64,000 bases of DNA from Bacteroidota bacterium (lineage in GTDB: Bacteria > Bacteroidota > JABWAT01), in contig JABWAT010000010.1 of NCBI GenBank assembly GCA_013360915.1, positions 62,001 through 126,000 on the forward strand. The letters are read 5' to 3'. Below are positions 21,697-43,861 of the stretch, piece after piece (position 1 is the first letter of the stretch; each line of letters begins with the position of its first letter). A program made the position numbers and the translations under genes. The notes below the pieces were generated by a model. It was not told the DNA's origin, did no database searches, and saw nothing but the letters and a program-made list of their open reading frames with translations.

Positions 21697-24600
21697 GTGG
21701 CCCGTCGGCTGATCCGTTTTCTGACCTACGCAGGACTGGTGAGTATTTACCTCATCCTGACCCTGCTGTTGCTCGGTCTGATGATCAGCCAGACAGATTG
21801 GTTCCGCGAAAAGGTCAGGCAACGTGTCGAACAGGCCGTTAACGAATCCATTCACGGTCGTCTCACCATCGGGGCCGTTTCGGGCAATTTTTTCTCCCGG
21901 CTTTCCATCCATGACATTTCCCTGACCGGTCCCGATTCACTCCCTGTCCTTCAGGCAAAAGAGCTCAAAATCAGATACATGCCCCTGTTTCTGGTTTTCA
22001 ACAACCTGTCTCTTTCAGAAATCAGTTTTATCGATCCCGGGTTTACCGTACTTGAAGACAGTCTGAACGGATGGAACCTGTCCAGACTGACCGATGCGAC
22101 CGCAGACGATTCCACAGACTCGGAACCCCTGGATCTGATGCAATACCGGATCCGGGTGGGTTTGCTTCGTATTCAGAACGGAACCGTGCGGTTCAGAACA
22201 GCCGATGGCGGACCGGACAGCCTGGCCCTGCTGAACCGGTTTAACTATTCCGATTTTCACTTTACGAACCTTCATTTGCGATCCTCACTGACCTTCCGTC
22301 CTGATGCGGTATCCTCCTTTAATATTCACGATTTGTCGGTCCGTGATTCTCTTTCCGGATTTACCTTGAAACAGTTCAGGCTGCTCAGCCGGTATGATCA
22401 GAAGGCGCTCACAGCTGATTCTCTGCTGGTCGAAACCGGAAATACCCGTCTGAGCGGGTCAGCCCGGTTCAGTCTGCCCGATTTTTTCCGGTTTTCACCC
22501 GGATGGAGCGACCGGATTCCCGCCACCCCGTTCGAAGCCTCCATCCGTCTCGATCCGTTTCATTTTAAAGACCTGACCACATTTCTTTCGGTTGTCGACA
22601 TGGTTCACGGACCTGTCCGGCTTGGAGCGCTGGTCCGCGGAACGCTTGATACGCTGACTGTAAAATCGGTCACTGTCGGACTCGGGGATTCCACACGGCT
22701 GGCCATAGACGGAACGATTTACCATCTCACCGACATCGACCGGATGTCATTTGATCTGAATCTGCTGCCCTCCACCGCGTATTCATCCGATCTGTCCGCT
22801 TTGCTGAAGACCCTTCCGCTCCCCGATTTCCGCAGAGCGGGATTGGTTAACCTGTCAGGAGCCTACCGTGGCAATCCTCTCAATTTCTCGGCAAGGATTT
22901 CTGTTGACAGCGAATCGGCCGGTTCAGCCACCGGATCGGTTTCGATGGATATGACTCAACCGGTTACCCGGTATCAGGGAACGGTTCAGGTCCGGTCGGT
23001 TAATCCATCCGGATGGCTTGGCGGAAATCCGGCCCTGGATGGGGACATAACAGGAGTGGCCTCCATCGGAGGAGAAGGATTTACCATTGATGATATTCAG
23101 ACGAAGGGATCGGTCCGGATTTCTGACTCACGATGGGGTAACTACCGAATTGACAGCCTGACCACCACGTTGAACGGCCGGCCGGGTGAACTGGATTATC
23201 TGATTCGTCTGGTTACCAATGCAGGGACGCTTGCAGCGGATGGTTTCCTCATTTCAGATGAGGGCATTCTGAGAAATCATGGTGAACTGTATCTGGACCA
23301 GCTGAACCTGAACATGCTGGTTCCCTCTCTGGCAGTGACCTCCATTTCGGGAGAAACCGCTGTTGACATGATGTTCTCTGACACCACCGACATCAGTGCC
23401 ACCGCCTTTTTCAGTGAATGGGTGATCGGCGGGTACGACTTTGGCACCTCCAGCCATGACATTCAGTTTTATAATATTCGTGGGGAACGTTTCGATCTGT
23501 CATTGCTGGGTTCCTGGCTGAACATTCAACTGCGGGGTTCCCAGGACATTGATTACTGGGTTCAGCATGGTCTTGCCACTCTCGAATCGATTCCCCGCTG
23601 GATGGAATCCGACTCAGTTTCTGAGTCTGAAACACCCGCACCCGGATGGCTGACTCCGGCCGATCTGAACTGGTCCTGGACCATCAAATCGGTGATTCCG
23701 GTGCTGAGTCTGGTCAAAGCCCCCATGATTGCGGTTGCAGGAAAAGGATCGGGGAAAACAACGGTACGCGGAGGTGAATCACTGGCCAGTCTCGATATAC
23801 GGCTCGATTCGCTTCAGATTGAAAACAGCCTGAAAATTAAAAATCTCGGAGTGATCGGATTGCTCGACTCCATCAACATTGTGTCGGCACTGAGGCATTC
23901 CATTGGTTCGCTCACCTTCACCGCCGACCGGATTGAATCGGTCAACCGGAACTGGGGCCAGGCCGACATTCTTCTGTGGCTGAATAACGGAACCATTTCG
24001 GTTTCTTCTGAACTGAACGATCCCACCGGATTGGTTTCTGGTTTATTTGATTTTGACCTGACATTTCAGCCAGACCTGATTCAGTTGAATCTGATCCAGT
24101 TTGTGGCCAAGCTGAAACCTGGTGACTGGGTTCTCGAAGATATCTGCCCCATCACTTTCACCGGTAAAGCACTATCCATCGACAATTTCAGGTTATCCAG
24201 TCCGTATGGTCTGGTCAGCATTTCAGGCGGACTTGATGAGGATGGAAGTGATCAATTGCGGATCGAAGGATCAGGAATCAGCCCGTCCCGTCTTGTTTCT
24301 GCATTTAGCAATGACCTGACGGTCTTTCCGGGAGGAACGGTTTCCTTTGCTGTGGATGCCATCGGGACTTTGCAGAATCCGATGGTATCTGCAACAGCCG
24401 CGTGGGACCAGATTTCCATGGGAAAAACCATCTATGGTGACCTGAGTGCATTGGCCTCGGTCGATGGTGGCTATCTCACTTACGATGCCAGGCTGACCGA
24501 TCCATCCGACCGGACGGCGTTTGTGTCCCGCGGATTTTACCCGGTTCTTCCTGCGGTTATTCCCGATGAATCGAAGCGGAATCAAATGCGCGCCGATCTG

Positions 24601-26277
24601 GAAGCCCTCGATTTTGATCTGAGTCTCTTCCAGAATCTGATTCCCGGCGTGAGCCAGCTGAAGGGGCTGCTTCGGGCCCGGCTGACGGTAGCCGGTTCAG
24701 TGGAAAAACCCAACCTTTCTGGTGAAGTAGGCTTCACGGATGGTCAGGTCCGGCTGACTTCCACCAATGTCACTTACCGGAACATCAGCGGGTCGGCTGC
24801 CATTGCCAATGACATCATACGGATCAGGTCCATCGATGCCTGGAGCGGAGAGTCGGGCCAGGCCAAGTTGTACGGTTCCTTCCGTCTGAAAAATTATCTG
24901 CCATCCAATGATTTGAATCTCACGCTGGTCCTGAATAACCTTCCGGTCCTGAACAAGACACCATCCCCATCTGAAATCTATTACGGAGCGGTGGACCTTA
25001 CCGGAACGGTGACACTGAAGGGCAGTTATGAAAAATCCGCGATCAACGGGAATGTCCGTATCCGCCGGGCCGCCCTCACGGTGGTAACCGCCACAGCCAA
25101 CCAGCGTACCGAAAACGAGGACAGTTTCATTTCGTTCGTCAATCAATCCGACCTGCGCCCGACAGGGGAGGAAGCAAACGGCACCACGGGGAAAACAGAA
25201 ACCATCCGTTTCCCGCTAAAAAAGAAGGAAAAGGGATTTGCTTCGGGGCTGAGTGCCTTTTTACAGGTGGATGCCAGCCAGAATGCCTACCTGACCATCA
25301 TTCTTAACCGGGCCACCGGTGAACAGCTTCAGACCGAGCTGAATGGAAATCTGACCATTCAGTACCAGAATGAGGACCTGACTGCCAATGGCGCACTCAA
25401 TGTTAATTCAGGATTTTACAACTTTTATACCACTCAGTTTCAGGTCGAACAGGGTGGTGCCATCTCCTGGACCGGCGATCCGGTAGCTCCCGAACTGAAT
25501 CTGGTTGCCAAAACGACCATCAGCCGTTTCATCAATACCGATCCGGCAAAACCCGTGAGCGAAAACAATGTGATCAGTCTGGGAATCAAAGGCGCTGTTC
25601 AGGAACCGGTTCTTTCCTATGACATTGTTTCCACCCGGACCACCGAGGAAAGTGAACTGACCCGTTCAACCCTCACTGATCCCGCCATGAAGGACAAGGC
25701 GCCTGCCAACATCATCAGTCTGCTGCTGATCGGTCAGTGGTTATATGATCCGTTCACCGAGGGAAGCAACCTGCAGTTTAACCTTCAGGATGATATCACC
25801 AGCACCACCCTGAATGCCGGATTCGGCGTTCTGAGCAACCACATCGGCCGTTTTCTGGGCGGTGTGGATAACAAAATCAGGTATGTGAACTTCAAGGTGG
25901 ATAATCAGGGAGGAAAGGCCGAAAACATCGGTGGAACCTTTGTATATGACATATCCGAAAACTGGTCATTCACCGGCGGTCTCAGTTACAACCTGTCGGA
26001 TGAACGCACCAATCTGACCGGTCAGACCTCGGCAAACCGGCTGGGCCTCAGCTGGCGTCTCGAGAACAAACTGACCAACAGTCTCAGCTGGGATATTTTC
26101 CAGAATTACGATCCATATACGTTCGATACCAACGAACAGATCGTCAGGGGAGTATCTTTGTTTTACCGCACCAATTTTTACCGCTGGGCCGATTTATTCC
26201 GCCGGCAAGAAGAAAGAGATCCGATCCGTGAGCGATCCGAAAGAGAAAATCAGACTGGAAATCCTCCGGTTCCTTGA
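21697..26277 (+). CDS. tamB: TamB/DUF490 family translocation and assembly protein
   Basis: A 1526-residue AsmA-like bridge protein. One N-terminal membrane helix (residues about 8-28, ISLILTLLLLGLMIS-like) is followed by an enormous repetitive beta-strand region and a C-terminal TamB domain in the last 350 residues (LNVNSGFYNFYTTQFQVEQG, NIISLLLIGQWLYDP). Such proteins form a hydrophobic groove across the periplasm and are implicated in outer-membrane protein assembly and phospholipid transport. The start is GTG at 21697, preceded by GGAGAG; the ATG two bases earlier would hit a stop after five codons. The last 50 bases overlap rnr. No TamA/BamA-like gene lies adjacent in this window. Confidence 0.88.
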   Translation: MARRLIRFLTYAGLVSIYLILTLLLLGLMISQTDWFREKVRQRVEQAVNESIHGRLTIGAVSGNFFSRLSIHDISLTGPDSLPVLQAKELKIRYMPLFLVFNNLSLSEISFIDPGFTVLEDSLNGWNLSRLTDATADDSTDSEPLDLMQYRIRVGLLRIQNGTVRFRTADGGPDSLALLNRFNYSDFHFTNLHLRSSLTFRPDAVSSFNIHDLSVRDSLSGFTLKQFRLLSRYDQKALTADSLLVETGNTRLSGSARFSLPDFFRFSPGWSDRIPATPFEASIRLDPFHFKDLTTFLSVVDMVHGPVRLGALVRGTLDTLTVKSVTVGLGDSTRLAIDGTIYHLTDIDRMSFDLNLLPSTAYSSDLSALLKTLPLPDFRRAGLVNLSGAYRGNPLNFSARISVDSESAGSATGSVSMDMTQPVTRYQGTVQVRSVNPSGWLGGNPALDGDITGVASIGGEGFTIDDIQTKGSVRISDSRWGNYRIDSLTTTLNGRPGELDYLIRLVTNAGTLAADGFLISDEGILRNHGELYLDQLNLNMLVPSLAVTSISGETAVDMMFSDTTDISATAFFSEWVIGGYDFGTSSHDIQFYNIRGERFDLSLLGSWLNIQLRGSQDIDYWVQHGLATLESIPRWMESDSVSESETPAPGWLTPADLNWSWTIKSVIPVLSLVKAPMIAVAGKGSGKTTVRGGESLASLDIRLDSLQIENSLKIKNLGVIGLLDSINIVSALRHSIGSLTFTADRIESVNRNWGQADILLWLNNGTISVSSELNDPTGLVSGLFDFDLTFQPDLIQLNLIQFVAKLKPGDWVLEDICPITFTGKALSIDNFRLSSPYGLVSISGGLDEDGSDQLRIEGSGISPSRLVSAFSNDLTVFPGGTVSFAVDAIGTLQNPMVSATAAWDQISMGKTIYGDLSALASVDGGYLTYDARLTDPSDRTAFVSRGFYPVLPAVIPDESKRNQMRADLEALDFDLSLFQNLIPGVSQLKGLLRARLTVAGSVEKPNLSGEVGFTDGQVRLTSTNVTYRNISGSAAIANDIIRIRSIDAWSGESGQAKLYGSFRLKNYLPSNDLNLTLVLNNLPVLNKTPSPSEIYYGAVDLTGTVTLKGSYEKSAINGNVRIRRAALTVVTATANQRTENEDSFISFVNQSDLRPTGEEANGTTGKTETIRFPLKKKEKGFASGLSAFLQVDASQNAYLTIILNRATGEQLQTELNGNLTIQYQNEDLTANGALNVNSGFYNFYTTQFQVEQGGAISWTGDPVAPELNLVAKTTISRFINTDPAKPVSENNVISLGIKGAVQEPVLSYDIVSTRTTEESELTRSTLTDPAMKDKAPANIISLLLIGQWLYDPFTEGSNLQFNLQDDITSTTLNAGFGVLSNHIGRFLGGVDNKIRYVNFKVDNQGGKAENIGGTFVYDISENWSFTGGLSYNLSDERTNLTGQTSANRLGLSWRLENKLTNSLSWDIFQNYDPYTFDTNEQIVRGVSLFYRTNFYRWADLFRRQEERDPIRERSERENQTGNPPVP

Positions 26278-36671: not shown

Positions 36672-37940
36672 TTATTTCATCAGAAATAGTTTCTGAACCG
36701 AGCGCTGACTACCTGCCTGCACTTTTAACATCAGGATTCCTGATGCATAACCAGACAGATTGATCACCCGGGAGTGGTTTCCTGCAGGCATCCACTCAGA
36801 ACCAGTTTCCTCGATCAGGCGGCCTGTGAGATCAAAAACCTGCATGGTCACAGGACCCTCTGAAATTTGATTCCATTGAACCGTGGTAGCGGGATTGAAC
36901 GGATTGGGGTACACCGATACGGTAAAAGATGTCTGGACTTCTGTTGAAGCAGCCGGTCCCTTTTCGACGTAGAAAAATTTCATCTGCCCGATCGATGTGA
37001 GCCGACCCTGATCATCATATGACAACTCAAGAACCCCTCTTTTCGGATGAATCCATTTGGTCAAGCGATCACCCTCCCATTCAAAGGATTCTCTCTGGAT
37101 CTCCGGATTGAATTCATGTCCGTTTTCCAGAATCTCTGAAGATTTCCGGCTGACTGGTCTCCAGTTCAATGCAGAATAGGTCAGGGTTGTTTCCAACCAG
37201 GGCACCGACTCTGAATTGTGGTGTGCAAAACCTTTCAACACACTGTTGGTAAACACTTTCTGGCTGGCAGGATAAAACAGATTCAAATTCCGGTCTTCAG
37301 TCCGAATGGTTCCCCACACATTTCCGCTCACATCTTTCACGGTCATGAGGGTGGTCTTTTCAGCACCCATCCTGCGAAAAGTATACTCCATCGTCCGATA
37401 TTCTAATGGCTGACCAGACCGCGACATCAGCGTCCGTCTGATGGCCGCAACCCGTCCCTGTTCGTCATAGGAAACTGAATCCCGAAAGGACCACTCATTT
37501 TCATAGCCAGTAAGACAAATTGGGGAATAGCCCCAGCGATTGTTATCCCTCTGTACAAATTGTACAACAATGGGCCGTTTTTCTGAATCATATTCTGCCG
37601 ACCAACGGATTTCCTCTTGCCCGGATGAAAGACGGGTGACCGACTGAAGTCTTCCATCCTGAAAACGGTGATATGAATCGGTATAAACCACCTCTCCCGC
37701 TTCGGCCACTGTTGCAGAAATCAGACTGTCTCGTGAATCATATCGATAAGAGGTTTCGTGTGTTCCCTCCATCACACGTAACAGAAGCTTGGGAGTATCT
37801 GAAGCAGGCAGAAAATCGATTCCTGTGTGTTGTAAAATCAGCCGGTCATACGGATTAATCTGAGCATCGGCTGGTTTAAAAATAATGGTTTGAGTCAGGC
37901 AGGTGGCCAGAAAGGAAAGAACGAGACTTTGTGATGTCAT
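36672..37940 (-). CDS. secreted YD-motif protein with type IX sorting domain
   Basis: A 422-residue exported protein. A signal peptide ends near residue 26 (PADAQ). The middle has RHS/YD-like motifs (YDSRDSLISATV, YDEQGRVAAIRR, YDDQGRLTSIGQ), suggesting a beta-rich repeat domain. The last 80 residues are a type IX secretion sorting domain: YPNPFNPATTVQW, VFDLTGRLIE, and the terminal LKVQAGSQRSVQKLFLMK. It should therefore cross the outer membrane through a type IX system encoded elsewhere. I chose the ATG at 37940, five bases after GGAG; a GTG at 37946 would overlap that site. The region is AT-richer than its surroundings. Target unknown. Confidence 0.82.
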   Translation of the reverse strand: MTSQSLVLSFLATCLTQTIIFKPADAQINPYDRLILQHTGIDFLPASDTPKLLLRVMEGTHETSYRYDSRDSLISATVAEAGEVVYTDSYHRFQDGRLQSVTRLSSGQEEIRWSAEYDSEKRPIVVQFVQRDNNRWGYSPICLTGYENEWSFRDSVSYDEQGRVAAIRRTLMSRSGQPLEYRTMEYTFRRMGAEKTTLMTVKDVSGNVWGTIRTEDRNLNLFYPASQKVFTNSVLKGFAHHNSESVPWLETTLTYSALNWRPVSRKSSEILENGHEFNPEIQRESFEWEGDRLTKWIHPKRGVLELSYDDQGRLTSIGQMKFFYVEKGPAASTEVQTSFTVSVYPNPFNPATTVQWNQISEGPVTMQVFDLTGRLIEETGSEWMPAGNHSRVINLSGYASGILMLKVQAGSQRSVQKLFLMK

Positions 37941-38970: not shown

Positions 38971-39771
38971 TTGTCAGCCTTTTTTACATCCATTGTCGAT
39001 TATCTGGGTCAGGATCTTCTGGACCGCATCCGGAATTTTATCCGGTTCCTGATTTTTGCCACTGATGGAATCCGGCACATGTTCATGCTGGGTATACAGA
39101 GGCAGGTCTCCTCGGTGGTACTCATCCGGCAGATTCTGTTCACCGGTTACGAGGCACTGACTCTGGTTTCGGTCATTGCCATTGCCATTGGCGGGATTAT
39201 CATCATTCAGGGGCATCTGGTGATAACCGGATTCGCCAATTCAGACCTGCTCTATATCATTCTGGTCTCGGTTATCGTCAGGGAATTGTCTGGCCTGATG
39301 ACCGCTTTTATCATTATCTCCCGATCTGGAACCGCCATATCCACCGAACTGGGAAACATGTCGGTGAATCATGAGGTTGAATCGCTCACCGCCATGGGAA
39401 TCTCCCCGATCTCGTATCTGGTTGCACCGCGTGTGTTCGGGGTGGTGGTCTCCATGATCACTCTCACCATTTATTTCAATGTGGCCGGGTTGCTGGGAGG
39501 ATGGGCCGTCTCTTCCCTGTTTGTCTCGGTTTCAATTGATGACTTCTTTTATAAATTGCTGTCTGAAGTTACCGTCACCGATATGCTGGCCGTGCTCGGA
39601 AAGTCCATTGTCTTTGGCCTGACTGTCGGCCTGATCGCCTCCTATCATGGTCTTCAGGTCCGGTATGCCTCCACGGAAGTTCCGCAAAGAACAATCAAAT
39701 CGGTGGTGCATTCGCTTCTGTGGATGGTGATCATAGACGTGTTATTTGCGCTGGGGTTGTATGTCATCTGA
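38971..39771 (+). CDS. mlaE: MlaE family ABC lipid transport permease
   Basis: A 266-residue inner-membrane permease of the MlaE/YrbE type. The family pattern GYEALTLVSVIAIAIGG, VIVRELSGLMTAFIIISRSGTAI and ELGNMSVNHEVESLTAMGI is clear, with about five membrane segments. It moves phospholipid with the MCE protein encoded two genes on. The start is TTG at 38971, four bases after AAAGGA; no ATG fits the conserved N-terminus. It overlaps the ATPase gene by 11 bases. Confidence 0.9.
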   Translation: MSAFFTSIVDYLGQDLLDRIRNFIRFLIFATDGIRHMFMLGIQRQVSSVVLIRQILFTGYEALTLVSVIAIAIGGIIIIQGHLVITGFANSDLLYIILVSVIVRELSGLMTAFIIISRSGTAISTELGNMSVNHEVESLTAMGISPISYLVAPRVFGVVVSMITLTIYFNVAGLLGGWAVSSLFVSVSIDDFFYKLLSEVTVTDMLAVLGKSIVFGLTVGLIASYHGLQVRYASTEVPQRTIKSVVHSLLWMVIIDVLFALGLYVI

Positions 39772-40528
39772 CGCCAGTTTTCTTTCCCTCAACTCGGTTA
39801 CCTTCGGACAGGAATCCCGCCTGCTCATTCAGCATTTTTCCCTGGCCATTGCACGGTCCGGGTTTACCGTACTGTTCGGCGGAACCGGCTCGGGAAAGAC
39901 GCTGGTCATGAAACTGCTGGCCGGAATTTACCATCCGCATGAGGGAGAAGTTCTGGTGGATGGAATGGTGGTGGGTAACCTCACGCCTGCAGAGTCGACC
40001 CGCTTAAAACGACGAATGGGATTTGTGTTTCAGGATGCCGCCCTGATTTCGAATCTTTCCATCAGGGAAAATCTGATGCTTCCGCTGAATCAGCACCTGC
40101 CCGACCTGACCATTGAGGAAAAAACCGATCAGATCAAAAACATGCTGACCCGCTTTGGAATCATCCAATCCATTGACCGCCGACCGGCCGATCTCTCTCT
40201 GACTCAGCGCCGACTGGCCGGCTGGGCCCGTGCCCTCATGACCGGACCCGATATTCTGCTGGCGGATGATCCCCTCACCGGTATTGATCCCGTTAACCGC
40301 AAACGACTCATGATGGAACTGGCTTCCCTGAAGGCAAGCGGAACCACGGTCGTCTGTGCCACACAAAGTCTGATCGGCCTGGATGAACTGGCCGACAAAA
40401 TTGCCGTACTGGATCACGGAACCTTGATTGATTTCGGATCTCTTGATGATATTCATGACAGTACACATGCCATTACCACCCGTTTGCTGGCCGATGACCG
40501 GCAGACTCACATGATTAACCGGACCTGA
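39761..40528 (+). CDS. mlaF: MlaF-like ABC ATPase with altered catalytic motifs
   Basis: A 255-residue ABC ATPase in the Mla operon. Walker A GGTGSGKT (40-47) and the Q-loop Gln91 are intact. The signature, normally LSGG(Q/M), reads LSLTQ at 145-149; the Walker B catalytic Glu is Asp (ADDP, Asp169-Asp170); and the switch His position is Gln202 (CATQSL). The D-loop GID is present. The protein should still bind ATP, but hydrolysis may be slow or depend on another subunit. I chose the ATG at 39761, which overlaps mlaE. Assignment to MlaF rests mostly on the operon. Confidence 0.85.
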   Translation: MSSDASFLSLNSVTFGQESRLLIQHFSLAIARSGFTVLFGGTGSGKTLVMKLLAGIYHPHEGEVLVDGMVVGNLTPAESTRLKRRMGFVFQDAALISNLSIRENLMLPLNQHLPDLTIEEKTDQIKNMLTRFGIIQSIDRRPADLSLTQRRLAGWARALMTGPDILLADDPLTGIDPVNRKRLMMELASLKASGTTVVCATQSLIGLDELADKIAVLDHGTLIDFGSLDDIHDSTHAITTRLLADDRQTHMINRT

Positions 40529-40538
40529 CCGGAGTTTT

Positions 40539-41615
40539 ATGCTTTCAATGGCTTTCAAATTCAAACATGCCAACCGGATCGTCGGAATTTTCGTGTTTTC
40601 CGCGCTGGCTTTACTTGTGGGCGGCCTTATCCTGGTGGCCATGCAGCAAAAGGTGTTTGTGAAGAAATACACCTTCCGGGCCCTCTTCCTCGATGCCGAA
40701 GGTCTTTCTTCTTCCACCTCGATTAATTTCAAAGGATATGAAATCGGGCGGATTACCGACTTCCGGCTGAATGATCAGAACCTGATTGATGCCGAGTTTT
40801 ATGTGGTCGAGGAATACCGTGGGAAATTGGTCGAAAACTCGGCGCTGAACAAGGCGAAAAACCCATTGACCGGTACCAGTAAAATTGAATTGCTTCAGGG
40901 TCCCGACCTGACCAGGGTTCTTCCTGAAGGCAGCCTGATTCCCAGCATCAATGTTCCCGATGGCCGGCGTCTGGTTGAACTCGGCCTGGTCGAAAAAACC
41001 GGTGACCCGATTGCCTCCATGGTTGCCAATCTGGATCAGTTTCTTGATAATCTGAACCGCGATAACAACGTACGGGGCGGAGCGGTTTTCCGGGCCATGG
41101 TGAATCTGGCCAATGCCGCAGAAAAGCTTGATCAGACCCTGCTCGAGGTCACCACCACTGTCGAAAAACTGAACCGCGAATACCGGCCCGGTGACGGACA
41201 GTTGTTCACCGCCATCAACCGGCTAACCCTGCTTGCCGAAGAACTGGACAGGACGGCTGATCAGGTCAACCAGACGTTGTCCAAAGCCGATGTACTGATT
41301 GAGAACTACCAGTCCCCCGATGAACTGGCCGTGAAAATGATTGACCCGACCCGGGAAAAACTGATCACTCCCGTCAGTGAGCTGATGATCAAACTGAACC
41401 GGACCATGGAAGAAATGAATGATCTTCTCAACTTTGTGAATACCAGACAACCCGAACTGGCCGATCTGATCCTGCAGGGAAGAACCACCATTCAAACAGC
41501 CAAAAAAACCCTTGAAGGAGTAAACAACAATCCACTCATCCGGGGAGGAATCACACCTCAGCCACAGCAGGATCCCGAAGGACTTCCGAACCGTCCGGGA
41601 ACGGAGAGGCCATGA
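40539..41615 (+). CDS. mlaD: MlaD/MCE family lipid-binding protein
   Basis: A 358-residue MCE protein. A membrane anchor at about 13-34 is followed by one MCE domain at about 40-118 (YTFRALFLDAEGLSSSTSI, FKGYEIGRITDF, KNPLTGTSKIELLQG). A long helical, probably coiled-coil segment (about 150-330) could build the periplasmic tube seen in longer MCE proteins. The C-terminus is Pro- and Gln-rich. GGAG stands four bases before the ATG at 40539. It lies in the mlaE-mlaF-mlaD order and overlaps the lipoprotein gene by four bases. Confidence 0.9.
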   Translation: MLSMAFKFKHANRIVGIFVFSALALLVGGLILVAMQQKVFVKKYTFRALFLDAEGLSSSTSINFKGYEIGRITDFRLNDQNLIDAEFYVVEEYRGKLVENSALNKAKNPLTGTSKIELLQGPDLTRVLPEGSLIPSINVPDGRRLVELGLVEKTGDPIASMVANLDQFLDNLNRDNNVRGGAVFRAMVNLANAAEKLDQTLLEVTTTVEKLNREYRPGDGQLFTAINRLTLLAEELDRTADQVNQTLSKADVLIENYQSPDELAVKMIDPTREKLITPVSELMIKLNRTMEEMNDLLNFVNTRQPELADLILQGRTTIQTAKKTLEGVNNNPLIRGGITPQPQQDPEGLPNRPGTERP

Positions 41616-42556
41616 AAAAACTGATTTGTATTCTGACTCCGATACTTTTTGCCGCCTGCTCTTCCCTGCCAGAAAGCCAACCGGTCTCACCGGCCTCCTC
41701 TCCAGTGACCGGCGCGCTGCGGTCAGGTTATCAGTCCCTCCGGTCGGGTGATACCGAACGGGCCCGGGGATTATTTGAACAATCGTACGGACAGGCCACC
41801 CTTCATGATGACATTCCGCTGAAAATCCGGTCGGGTCTTGCCATGGCCCGTGTGGCCCGGCAGGCTGGCGATCAGATTGCTGCCCGCCGATGGGAAATTC
41901 AAAGCCGCAAGCTCATAGATTTATGGGAACCTGATTACCTTATTTACCACACACTTTACCAGGCCGAACGTTTCTGGCTGCTGGGGAGGACCGATTCGAT
42001 CCGTCAGATCACTGGCGACTTTGATGGTAAGCATCCCTGGCTGGCTGTTCAGTTACAGGCCTACCGGGTGCTGGCTTTCCAGGATCAATCCGGCGTGAAG
42101 GATGAAGTCAACCGGCTGGAATCCATGGCCCTTGATCTCTCCGATCCATCCATCAACGAATCAGAAGACCCCGGTGCACTGGCATTTGCCTGGTACACAG
42201 CCGGGCGGTCACGATTCAGGCTGGGTGATTACAAATCTGCGCTGGAAAATTACGAACAGGCACGTCTGGCCGATCAGAAGTCGGGTAACGCCTCCGGCCT
42301 GGCCGATGATCTGTCTGGAATCGCACAGAGTTATGAAAAGTTGGGAAAGCCCGGCGAGGCCGAATCGGCCGCCCTCCGCTCCTGGGAGATCAATGCGCAG
42401 CTGAACCGCCAACCCGACCGTGATTTGTCACAGGCGTTCTGGCTCGAACTCAGACTCGCCCACGATCCATCAGCACGTGTTCAACTCGAACAACTGATGC
42501 GGTCCACCACCCATCAGCCGCTGGCCGACCGGTTACGACAGCGATTTTTCCGATAA
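41612..42556 (+). CDS. TPR-like lipoprotein of the Mla operon
   Basis: A 314-residue protein with a lipoprotein signal: MKKLICILTPILFAAC, lipid-bearing Cys at 16. The rest is helical, with tetratricopeptide-like pairs (GYQSLRSGDTERARGLFEQS, FRLGDYKSALENYEQARLA, IAQSYEKLGKPGEAESAALR). It is translationally coupled to mlaD (ATGA) and ends the operon, so it probably serves as an envelope partner of the MCE system. It is not similar to MlaA, MlaB or MlaC, none of which are in the window. Confidence 0.8.
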   Translation: MKKLICILTPILFAACSSLPESQPVSPASSPVTGALRSGYQSLRSGDTERARGLFEQSYGQATLHDDIPLKIRSGLAMARVARQAGDQIAARRWEIQSRKLIDLWEPDYLIYHTLYQAERFWLLGRTDSIRQITGDFDGKHPWLAVQLQAYRVLAFQDQSGVKDEVNRLESMALDLSDPSINESEDPGALAFAWYTAGRSRFRLGDYKSALENYEQARLADQKSGNASGLADDLSGIAQSYEKLGKPGEAESAALRSWEINAQLNRQPDRDLSQAFWLELRLAHDPSARVQLEQLMRSTTHQPLADRLRQRFFR

Positions 42557-42658: not shown

Positions 42659-43861
42659 ATGACCACCGAAATTATCATTGCCATCTGCGGTTTGATTTTA
42701 CTTGCTTACCTGTTTGATGTTACCGTATCTATTACCCGAATTCCTTCTGTCATTCTGTTATTGATTGTGGGGTGGTCCGTCAGGCAACTGACCATCTTAC
42801 TTCAGATTCCCATGCCGGATATAGCTCAGGTCCTCCCCGTGATCGGTACGGTCGGACTCATTCTGATCGTGCTCGAAGGATCCCTCGAGCTTGAACTTTC
42901 CCGTTCAAAACTAGGTGTTATCTCAAAAACCATTACCATCTCACTGCTTTCTGTTATGGTGTTCAGCTTAGGACTGGCTTTTGTATTTCAATATTTTTCC
43001 GGCGTCAGTTTAAAGATTGCGCTTGTCAACGCCATTCCATTCGCCGTTATCAGCAGTGCCATTGCCATCCCCACCGCTCAGAAGTTCTTGTCAAAAGACA
43101 GGGAATTTATTACCTATGAAAGCAGCTTTTCTGATATCATAGGGGTGATCCTGTTTAATTTCCTCATTTTAAATGAGACCATCGGATTGGTTTCAGTCGG
43201 TCAGTTTTTATTGGAAATGACCCTCATTCTGTTAATCACCCTGGTAACCACCCTGTTGCTGGCCCTGTTACTTGGCAAACTGAAACACCACGTCAAATAC
43301 CTGCCAATCATCGTTCTGATTGTTCTCATTTACTCCTTGTCAAAATTATACCACCTTCCTGCGTTGATTATCATACTATTGTTTGGACTGTTTCTCGGAA
43401 ATCTGAATAAATTCAGGAGGTTCGGGTTCATAAGCAGACTGCATCCGGATGGAATGACACATGATGTGCATAAATTCCGGGACCTGACCGTTGAAATTGC
43501 CTTCCTGGTCCGCGTGCTCTTCTTCTTACTTTTCGGCTACCAGATTCAAACCAGTGATCTGATCAATCTGGAAACGCTGGTGTGGGCTTTGGGCATCAGC
43601 CTGGGCATTTACGGAATTCGCTATGGGCTTCTTCTTCTGTATAAAGTAAAAAGTCCAGCCGTTTTTTTTACCGCACCACGTGGCCTGATTACCATCCTGT
43701 TGTTTCTGAGCATACCCGCCAGTCAGGTCGTACCACCGGTTTCTAATTCCCTGATCATTCAGGTTATTCTGATCTCGGCTATGATGCTGATGATTGGTAT
43801 GATTGGGAATGGTGGGAAAGAGAAGGAACGATTGGAAGTTGAACCATCCGGGAAGAATTAA
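42659..43861 (+). CDS. cation:proton antiporter (CPA family)
   Basis: A 400-residue inner-membrane protein with about 12 hydrophobic segments and the layout of monovalent cation/H+ antiporters: IPSVILLLIVGW near the N-terminus, LILIVLEGSLELELS, AIPFAVISSAIAIPTA, then YESSFSDIIGVILFNF carrying the likely ion-binding Asp. A short charged tail follows. The substrate (Na+, K+ or H+ only) is not determinable. The gene is AT-richer than its neighbours. It is separated from the Mla operon by about 100 bases and may be transcribed alone. Confidence 0.82.
   Translation: MTTEIIIAICGLILLAYLFDVTVSITRIPSVILLLIVGWSVRQLTILLQIPMPDIAQVLPVIGTVGLILIVLEGSLELELSRSKLGVISKTITISLLSVMVFSLGLAFVFQYFSGVSLKIALVNAIPFAVISSAIAIPTAQKFLSKDREFITYESSFSDIIGVILFNFLILNETIGLVSVGQFLLEMTLILLITLVTTLLLALLLGKLKHHVKYLPIIVLIVLIYSLSKLYHLPALIIILLFGLFLGNLNKFRRFGFISRLHPDGMTHDVHKFRDLTVEIAFLVRVLFFLLFGYQIQTSDLINLETLVWALGISLGIYGIRYGLLLLYKVKSPAVFFTAPRGLITILLFLSIPASQVVPPVSNSLIIQVILISAMMLMIGMIGNGGKEKERLEVEPSGKN

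Follow-up and report, generated by a model that had tools for sequence, protein, structure and literature searches.

Can an Mla operon still work as an ATP-driven lipid transporter when its ATPase-like subunit has lost the signature motif, the catalytic Glu and the switch His? The question is raised by a four-gene operon in the 64,000-nucleotide stretch of Bacteroidota DNA analysed here (the window). The operon encodes, in this order, an MlaE-family permease (E*), an MlaF-like NBD (F*), an MCE/MlaD-like protein (D*) and a TPR lipoprotein (Table 1). F* shares its first 11 bases with the end of E*, and the lipoprotein gene its first 4 bases with the end of D*; the operon has no recognised gene for MlaB, MlaC or MlaA. 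The window E* scored 188.8 bits against the Pfam model PF02405 (cut-off 22.5), a cut-off that all 22 E* described below passed. When the window F* was read against E. coli MlaF, the residues listed by an earlier, sequence-only reading were all confirmed (intact Walker A and Q-loop, LSLT, Asp170 and Gln202), and the D-loop Asp was also present. A single-sequence fold of this protein gave a pLDDT of 37 and a pTM of 0.24.

Table 1. Genes and features of the operon, with positions in the window.
Feature	Position	Strand	Evidence
E*, MlaE-family permease (PF02405), operon gene 1	38971..39771	+	Pfam MlaE 1.2e-55
E* cytoplasmic loop, EExDA-type, aligned to the MlaE coupling-helix region	39280..39435	+	alignment
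NHEVESL in the E* loop; NHE replaces TEQ of canonical MlaE	39367-39387	+	alignment
F*, MlaF-like NBD, 255 aa, without canonical signature, catalytic Glu and switch His	39761..40528	+	Pfam ABC_tran 2.6e-25
F* Walker A GGTGSGKT, residues 40-47, intact in window copy	39878..39901	+	
F* Q-loop Gln91, intact in window copy	40031..40033	+	
F* post-Q-loop stretch AALISNLSIRENLMLPL, most conserved F* segment	40037..40087	+	column entropy
F* signature LSLTQ, residues 145-149; LSGGM in E. coli MlaF	40193..40207	+	
F* Walker B LLADDP, Asp169 and Asp170; Asp169 and Glu170 in E. coli MlaF	40256..40273	+	
F* switch region CATQSL, Gln202; His203 in E. coli MlaF	40355..40372	+	
D*, MCE/MlaD-like, one MCE domain and long C-terminal region	40539..41615	+	Pfam MlaD 3.3e-8
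TPR lipoprotein, lipobox FAAC-SS	41612..42556	+	Pfam TPR_12 9.4e-10; lipobox by pattern and eye

Other genes were observed elsewhere in the window. A TamB-like protein (Pfam 8.5e-36) is encoded at 21781-26277, about 13 kb from the operon, TamB being another proposed intermembrane lipid carrier. The operon is followed, at 42659-43861, by a 400-aa membrane protein that resembles cation/proton antiporters by eye and gave no Pfam or NCBIfam match above the cut-offs applied. On the minus strand, positions 36672-37940 encode YD/RHS-like repeats with a type IX secretion sorting tail, which fits a Bacteroidota-like phylum.

The window permease was used as the query against three overlapping genome samples, with cut-offs of 1e-40 and 1e-35. 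E* was found in 13 out of 394 genomes of the phylum, in 3 out of 98 genomes of one class (all three already in the phylum sample) and in 15 out of 391 genomes of another class (nine of them new), for a total of 22 distinct genomes with six family codes (f1, f5, f7, f26, f32 and f59). Every match had an E value of 1e-60 or better, and permeases of the clade were 43-62% identical to that of the window. The distribution was patchy, with the majority of the searched genomes lacking E*, and the large family f8 gave no match in the sample of 98 genomes from one class. An ABC-type ORF, F*, directly followed E* in 21 of the 22 loci, the contig of the last one (G631) stopping before F*; its frame was open in all 21, and it adjoined E* wherever this could be read. 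A D* homologue lay downstream of F* in all 20 loci read, and a lipobox-bearing ORF followed D* in 18 of these (G594 and G530 had none there). The lipobox pattern missed two of the 18, QGC-SS in G136 and MAC-SS in G397, both of which were seen by eye, and in G262 it was placed at SIIC, a later GGC being likelier. All five lipoproteins scanned from these operons matched TPR models. Among the 20 D* rows, mean identity was 36%; among the 18 lipoprotein rows, it was 22%. None of these lipoproteins has Asp directly after the lipid-bearing Cys, which by the E. coli rule fits outer-membrane sorting.

Some loci carried additional genes. In G397, a STAS-domain protein is encoded directly after the E*-F*-D*-TPR operon (L146:5623-6009), MlaB also being a STAS protein, and in several f32 genomes (L066, L069, L071 and L072) an ORF of about 215 aa, B12-binding-like in appearance, was observed upstream of E*. 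A search of genome contigs also returned 14 loci matching the window F* at 21-30% identity; by their motifs these resembled other ABC families, and they were not used.

Catalytic motifs were read by alignment in 21 F*, identical copies of a locus being entered once, and in a canonical set of 25 MlaFs from the carriers' other loci and from two further genomes of the phylum. One of the 25 (L106) is truncated and absent from the Walker B and His counts. The LSGG signature was found in none of the 21 F* and in all 25 canonical MlaFs. A Walker A motif of the form GxxGxGK[ST] was present in 4 F*, versus 25 out of 25 canonical proteins, and its Lys (Lys47) was kept in 8 F* and lost in 13. The Q-loop Gln and the D-loop Asp were each present in 8 out of 21 F*. 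The Walker B Asp was found in 14 F*, the catalytic Glu (Glu170) in 10 and the switch His (His203) in only two (G262 and G652), versus 24 canonical MlaFs for each of these residues, the other one being truncated. The full motif set was observed in no F* but in all 24 untruncated canonical MlaFs. Lys47, LSGG, Glu170 and His203 were jointly lost in 10 of the 21 F*.

Counts made without alignment were 0 out of 21 F* versus 25 out of 25 canonical proteins for [LIVMF]SGG anywhere in the protein, and 4 versus 25 for GxxxxGK[ST]. The Pfam model ABC_tran (PF00005) was still matched by all 21 F*. Walker A was least degraded in the window F* and in three relatives from the same family, and these four also kept the Q-loop Gln, the Walker B Asp and the D-loop Asp. 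Close homologues of the window F* were not canonical: the three nearest, from G001-G003 and 38-39% identical to it, lacked LSGG and the His and kept the Glu. Judged by these motifs, the changes noticed in the window are the mild end of a broader degradation that extends over the clade.

To place these proteins, we used two mixed trees, both from a quick search with SH-aLRT support, in which long branches meet. Among 67 permeases, the 22 E* rows formed one side of a branch with a support of 100, the other side comprising E. coli MlaE, 24 canonical permeases and 20 that have no ATPase gene next to them. In the tree of 47 NBDs, built after the motif columns had been taken out, all 21 F* likewise formed one side of a branch with a support of 100, so the suggestion that the changed proteins belong to one clade was borne out. 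The number of changes needed on the E* tree was at least four for the Walker A Lys, four for Glu170, four for Asp169 and five for the Q-loop Gln. On this sequence evidence, the E*-F*-D*-TPR operons are a monophyletic group in which the catalytic motifs of F* were lost stepwise. Since the signature is gone from all 21 F*, its loss may be ancestral and the other losses later and separate, an order that we infer from an unrooted tree.

The nearest branch to the E* clade was a 362-aa MlaE (L091, G652:C333), whose adjacent ATPase has intact LSGGM, DEP and THE motifs and whose coupling loop, TEEIDA, looks intermediate. A transporter of this type may be the active sister from which E* and F* arose.

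Selection was estimated as dN/dS by the Nei-Gojobori method, with bootstrap ranges, in two close genome pairs; D* was partly covered, and the ORFs used extend a few codons upstream of the true starts. In the pair G003/G002, dN/dS was 0.042 (0.018-0.072) for F*, 0.048 for the canonical F, 0.041 for E* and 0.019 for D*. In the pair G183/G372, whose F* are without Walker A, LSGG, Walker B Asp, Glu and His, the values were 0.052 (0.022-0.092), 0.033, 0.004 and 0.020, respectively. These ratios indicate that F* is under strong purifying selection, comparable to that on canonical MlaF in the same genome pairs. Over all pairs, mean identity was 49% for both E* and canonical E, and 30% for F* versus 50% for canonical F; together with the low dN/dS, this points to a greater long-run divergence of F* under tight short-run constraint. 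The identity matrices of E* and F* were correlated (r 0.86), and none of 2000 permutations gave a value as high.

Conservation along F* was measured as column entropy over 19 sequences, the near-copies G372 and G002 being left out. The post-Q-loop stretch was the most conserved, with 1.0 bits, versus 2.56 for Walker A, 2.5 for the signature, 2.45 for the D-loop and 2.52 for the switch. Ten columns were invariant in all 21 F* (window numbering: G55, G62, F90, N98, N104, K121, R141, P142, R157 and P171), and at three of these places (N98, K121 and R141) other residues are usual in the canonical set. The conserved stretch, SNL..ENL.LP, stands just after the Q-loop, and we take it to be part of the NBD cleft for the coupling helix. 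In ABC transporters, the NBD cleft takes in the coupling helix of the permease (PMC7367683), which in MlaE connects TM2 and TM3 (PMC7790496), and the EExDA loop of MCE permeases has been proposed as an ATPase-binding site (PMC1810536).

The corresponding loop of E* was also altered. In the coupling loop, [TS]E[QE] was read in all 45 MlaE rows outside the clade (canonical, unpaired and E. coli), with TEQ[IL]D in canonical relatives, whereas N-x-E was present in all 22 E* and in none of the 45 other rows; the first Glu was kept in only one E*. Two putative partner surfaces, the F* post-Q-loop stretch and the E* loop, thus seem to have changed in the same clade and to be conserved within it. The sequence-only reading had considered the genes beside F* to be normal and the operon not to be decaying; the latter is upheld by the open frames and the dN/dS values, but the former does not quite hold for E*, given this change to N-x-E.

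The status of F* as a pseudo-ATPase is well supported, so far as motifs can tell, and what is known of E. coli MlaF bears on the residues concerned. Its K47, T48 and S146 touch ATP (PMC7784689), the K47R variant has no ATPase activity (PMC5016091), and neither K47A nor E170Q complements (PMC7367683). E170Q nevertheless retains about 20% of the ATPase activity (PMC7784689). Some observations count against this status: an Asp in place of Glu, as in the window F*, need not abolish all activity, the window F* is of the least degraded kind, and the Glu is still present in 10 of the 21 F* and the His in two.

The strongest of the alternatives sees F* as a regulatory NBD, either slow or restricted to ATP binding, in which ATP would close the dimer without turnover and thereby switch the permease. 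The complete Walker A, Q-loop Gln, Walker B Asp and D-loop Asp of the window F* and its three relatives agree with this, but the Walker A Lys is gone from most F*, through repeated state changes on the E* tree, and LSGG, which clamps on the nucleotide in the closed dimer, is gone from all of them. With both losses, such a reading can hold for a few lineages only, and we regard it as unlikely overall. The slow ATPase that had been suggested from the window is not supported as a general explanation, given the 13 F* without the Walker A Lys and the 10 F* that lack all four of Lys47, LSGG, Glu170 and His203.

An ATPase encoded elsewhere could also supply the missing function, and the genome of the window was searched for one. 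In this genome (3.65 Mb, 51 contigs), three MlaE permeases and three MCE proteins were found. The search for a canonical MlaF, as earlier proposed, yielded two MlaF-type ATPases besides F* (L002 and L003), with LSGGM, DEP and THD motifs; both were the best matches of the window F* in its own genome, at 27-29% identity. L002 lies beside a permease and an MCE protein, and L003 and another permease stand apart. As the two canonical MlaFs match the two other MlaE permeases, there is no surplus MlaF in this genome. L003 and an MCE gene (L049) are located elsewhere, a split transporter being possible, and genomes of the clade also have MlaE permeases without an ATPase gene in the flanks read (L026, L053 and other rows).

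One way in which a second ATPase could act is as a heterodimer, with F* as the degenerate half and a canonical MlaF encoded elsewhere as the other, as in heterodimeric ABC exporters. Canonical MlaFs are indeed present in the genomes, degenerate/canonical pairs are an established kind (PMC7756269), and MceG is common to several Mce systems (PMC9947336). However, a composite site made of canonical MlaF and the F* signature would be incomplete in all 21 cases, and one made of canonical MlaF and the F* Walker A and B would be complete in only three. Moreover, the coupling motif is shifted from the type that pairs with canonical MlaF in every E*, and the window genome has no MlaF to spare. We therefore rejected the heterodimer as the general case on the composite-site count, and with it the need for a partner ATPase that had been raised for the window; its overall probability is low. 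Since most F*, as homodimers, would lack both the P-loop and the signature at each site, and a heterodimer would have a complete site in few cases, a pseudo-ATPase with a docking and assembly role is favoured.

Equally improbable is that a canonical MlaF acts on E* in trans while F* has an unrelated or regulatory job. One ATPase serving several MCE permeases is known in MceG (PMC9947336), but here the distances of E* and F* co-vary, their genes are adjacent in every readable locus, and the clade with the altered E* coupling motif also has altered residues after the Q-loop of F*. Lastly, decay of the operon, or assembly errors as the source of the changes, has practically no likelihood and was rejected on the open frames and the dN/dS of 0.04-0.05: F* does diverge faster than canonical MlaF, but the four-gene order is kept in 18 out of 20 loci, and the lack of [LIVMF]SGG is common to all 21 F*.

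Overall, the operon is probably an Mla-type MCE lipid transporter with a conserved pseudo-ATPase as its ABC subunit, whereas the transport mechanism is something that we infer. Tentatively, and with slightly less than even confidence, we propose that the clade dropped the use of ATP: a selected pseudo-ATPase would lock E* in a conducting state, and E*, D* and the lipoprotein would form a passive lipid conduit, equilibrating or exporting between the membranes. F* would dimerise beneath the E* dimer and, via the coupling helix, would fix E* in one working conformation or stabilise the assembly. Lipids would pass through E* and a D* hexamer toward the outer-membrane TPR lipoprotein, or back, driven by their own gradient and not by ATP hydrolysis. 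ATP binding by F* may persist in the window lineage, where Walker A is intact; the nucleotide would then serve as a structural ligand or a slow switch. A role of an NBD in complex stability has a precedent in mycobacteria, in which Mce1 and Mce4 proteins are degraded when MceG is lost (PMC9947336). MceG Walker B mutants fail to stabilise the Mce transporters (PMC9947336), so a dead NBD acting as a stabiliser would need adaptation.

Compared with Mla/MlaFEDB of E. coli and others, this operon has the same PF02405 permease, MlaF-like NBD and MCE protein together in one operon, but none of the 21 F* has the full motifs, a TPR lipoprotein is added, and the coupling motif of the permease is changed. 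Because the catalytic features were checked and no F* had the full set, we filed the operon as Mla-like by homology and not as an Mla ATPase system. PqiABC and LetAB are MCE systems with a membrane protein without an ATPase domain and offer a precedent for ATPase-free conduits (PMC12436622). Like them, the present operon combines an MCE protein with a membrane partner and, by its motifs, no evident ATP hydrolysis, and like PqiABC it would end at an outer-membrane lipoprotein. It differs in that its permease is of the MlaE type (PF02405) and not PqiA or LetA, in that D* has one MCE domain (a single Pfam MlaD stretch) versus three or seven, and in that the NBD gene, absent there, is kept here but seemingly inactive.

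Among four-gene systems, Mpc of Brucella also has MlaE- and MlaF-like subunits, a long MCE protein and a lipoprotein partner, but its ABC transporter is described as well conserved and its permease has a STAS domain (PMC12436622), whereas the present operon has a degenerate NBD and a lipoprotein of the TPR type. The transenvelope Mla of Veillonella, with a long MlaD, shares the MlaEFD core and the elongated MCE protein; the parts of that survey consulted report no inactive ATPase, and MlaF was omitted from its tree, its annotation being uncertain (PMC10665443). In ABC exporters with a degenerate site, catalytic residues of the NBD are also lost and the structural role is kept, but one of the two sites is live (PMC7756269), whereas the single NBD gene here would make both sites degenerate. 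The permeases of the MceG-served mycobacterial Mce systems likewise carry an EExDA loop, the proposed binding site of the ATPase; MceG, however, keeps all motifs and is shared in trans (PMC9947336, PMC1810536), unlike the cis-encoded, degenerate F*. No description of an MlaF without these motifs was found in the literature searched, which covered few subscription papers or bioRxiv preprints.

ATP-driven NBDs are the defining part of ABC transporters, and the degenerate examples in the review consulted retain one live site (PMC7756269). If the proposed reading is true, an NBD that is encoded in cis, has two degenerate sites and is selected as strongly as its canonical paralogue would be a clear pseudoenzyme of a lipid transporter. 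The direction of Mla transport is disputed, since spontaneous, ATP-independent transfer from MlaD to MlaC has been reported, with ATP hydrolysis said to block it (PMC10212509). A natural, hydrolysis-free Mla would permit a direct test of the direction of Mla transport and of how Mla works without ATP hydrolysis.
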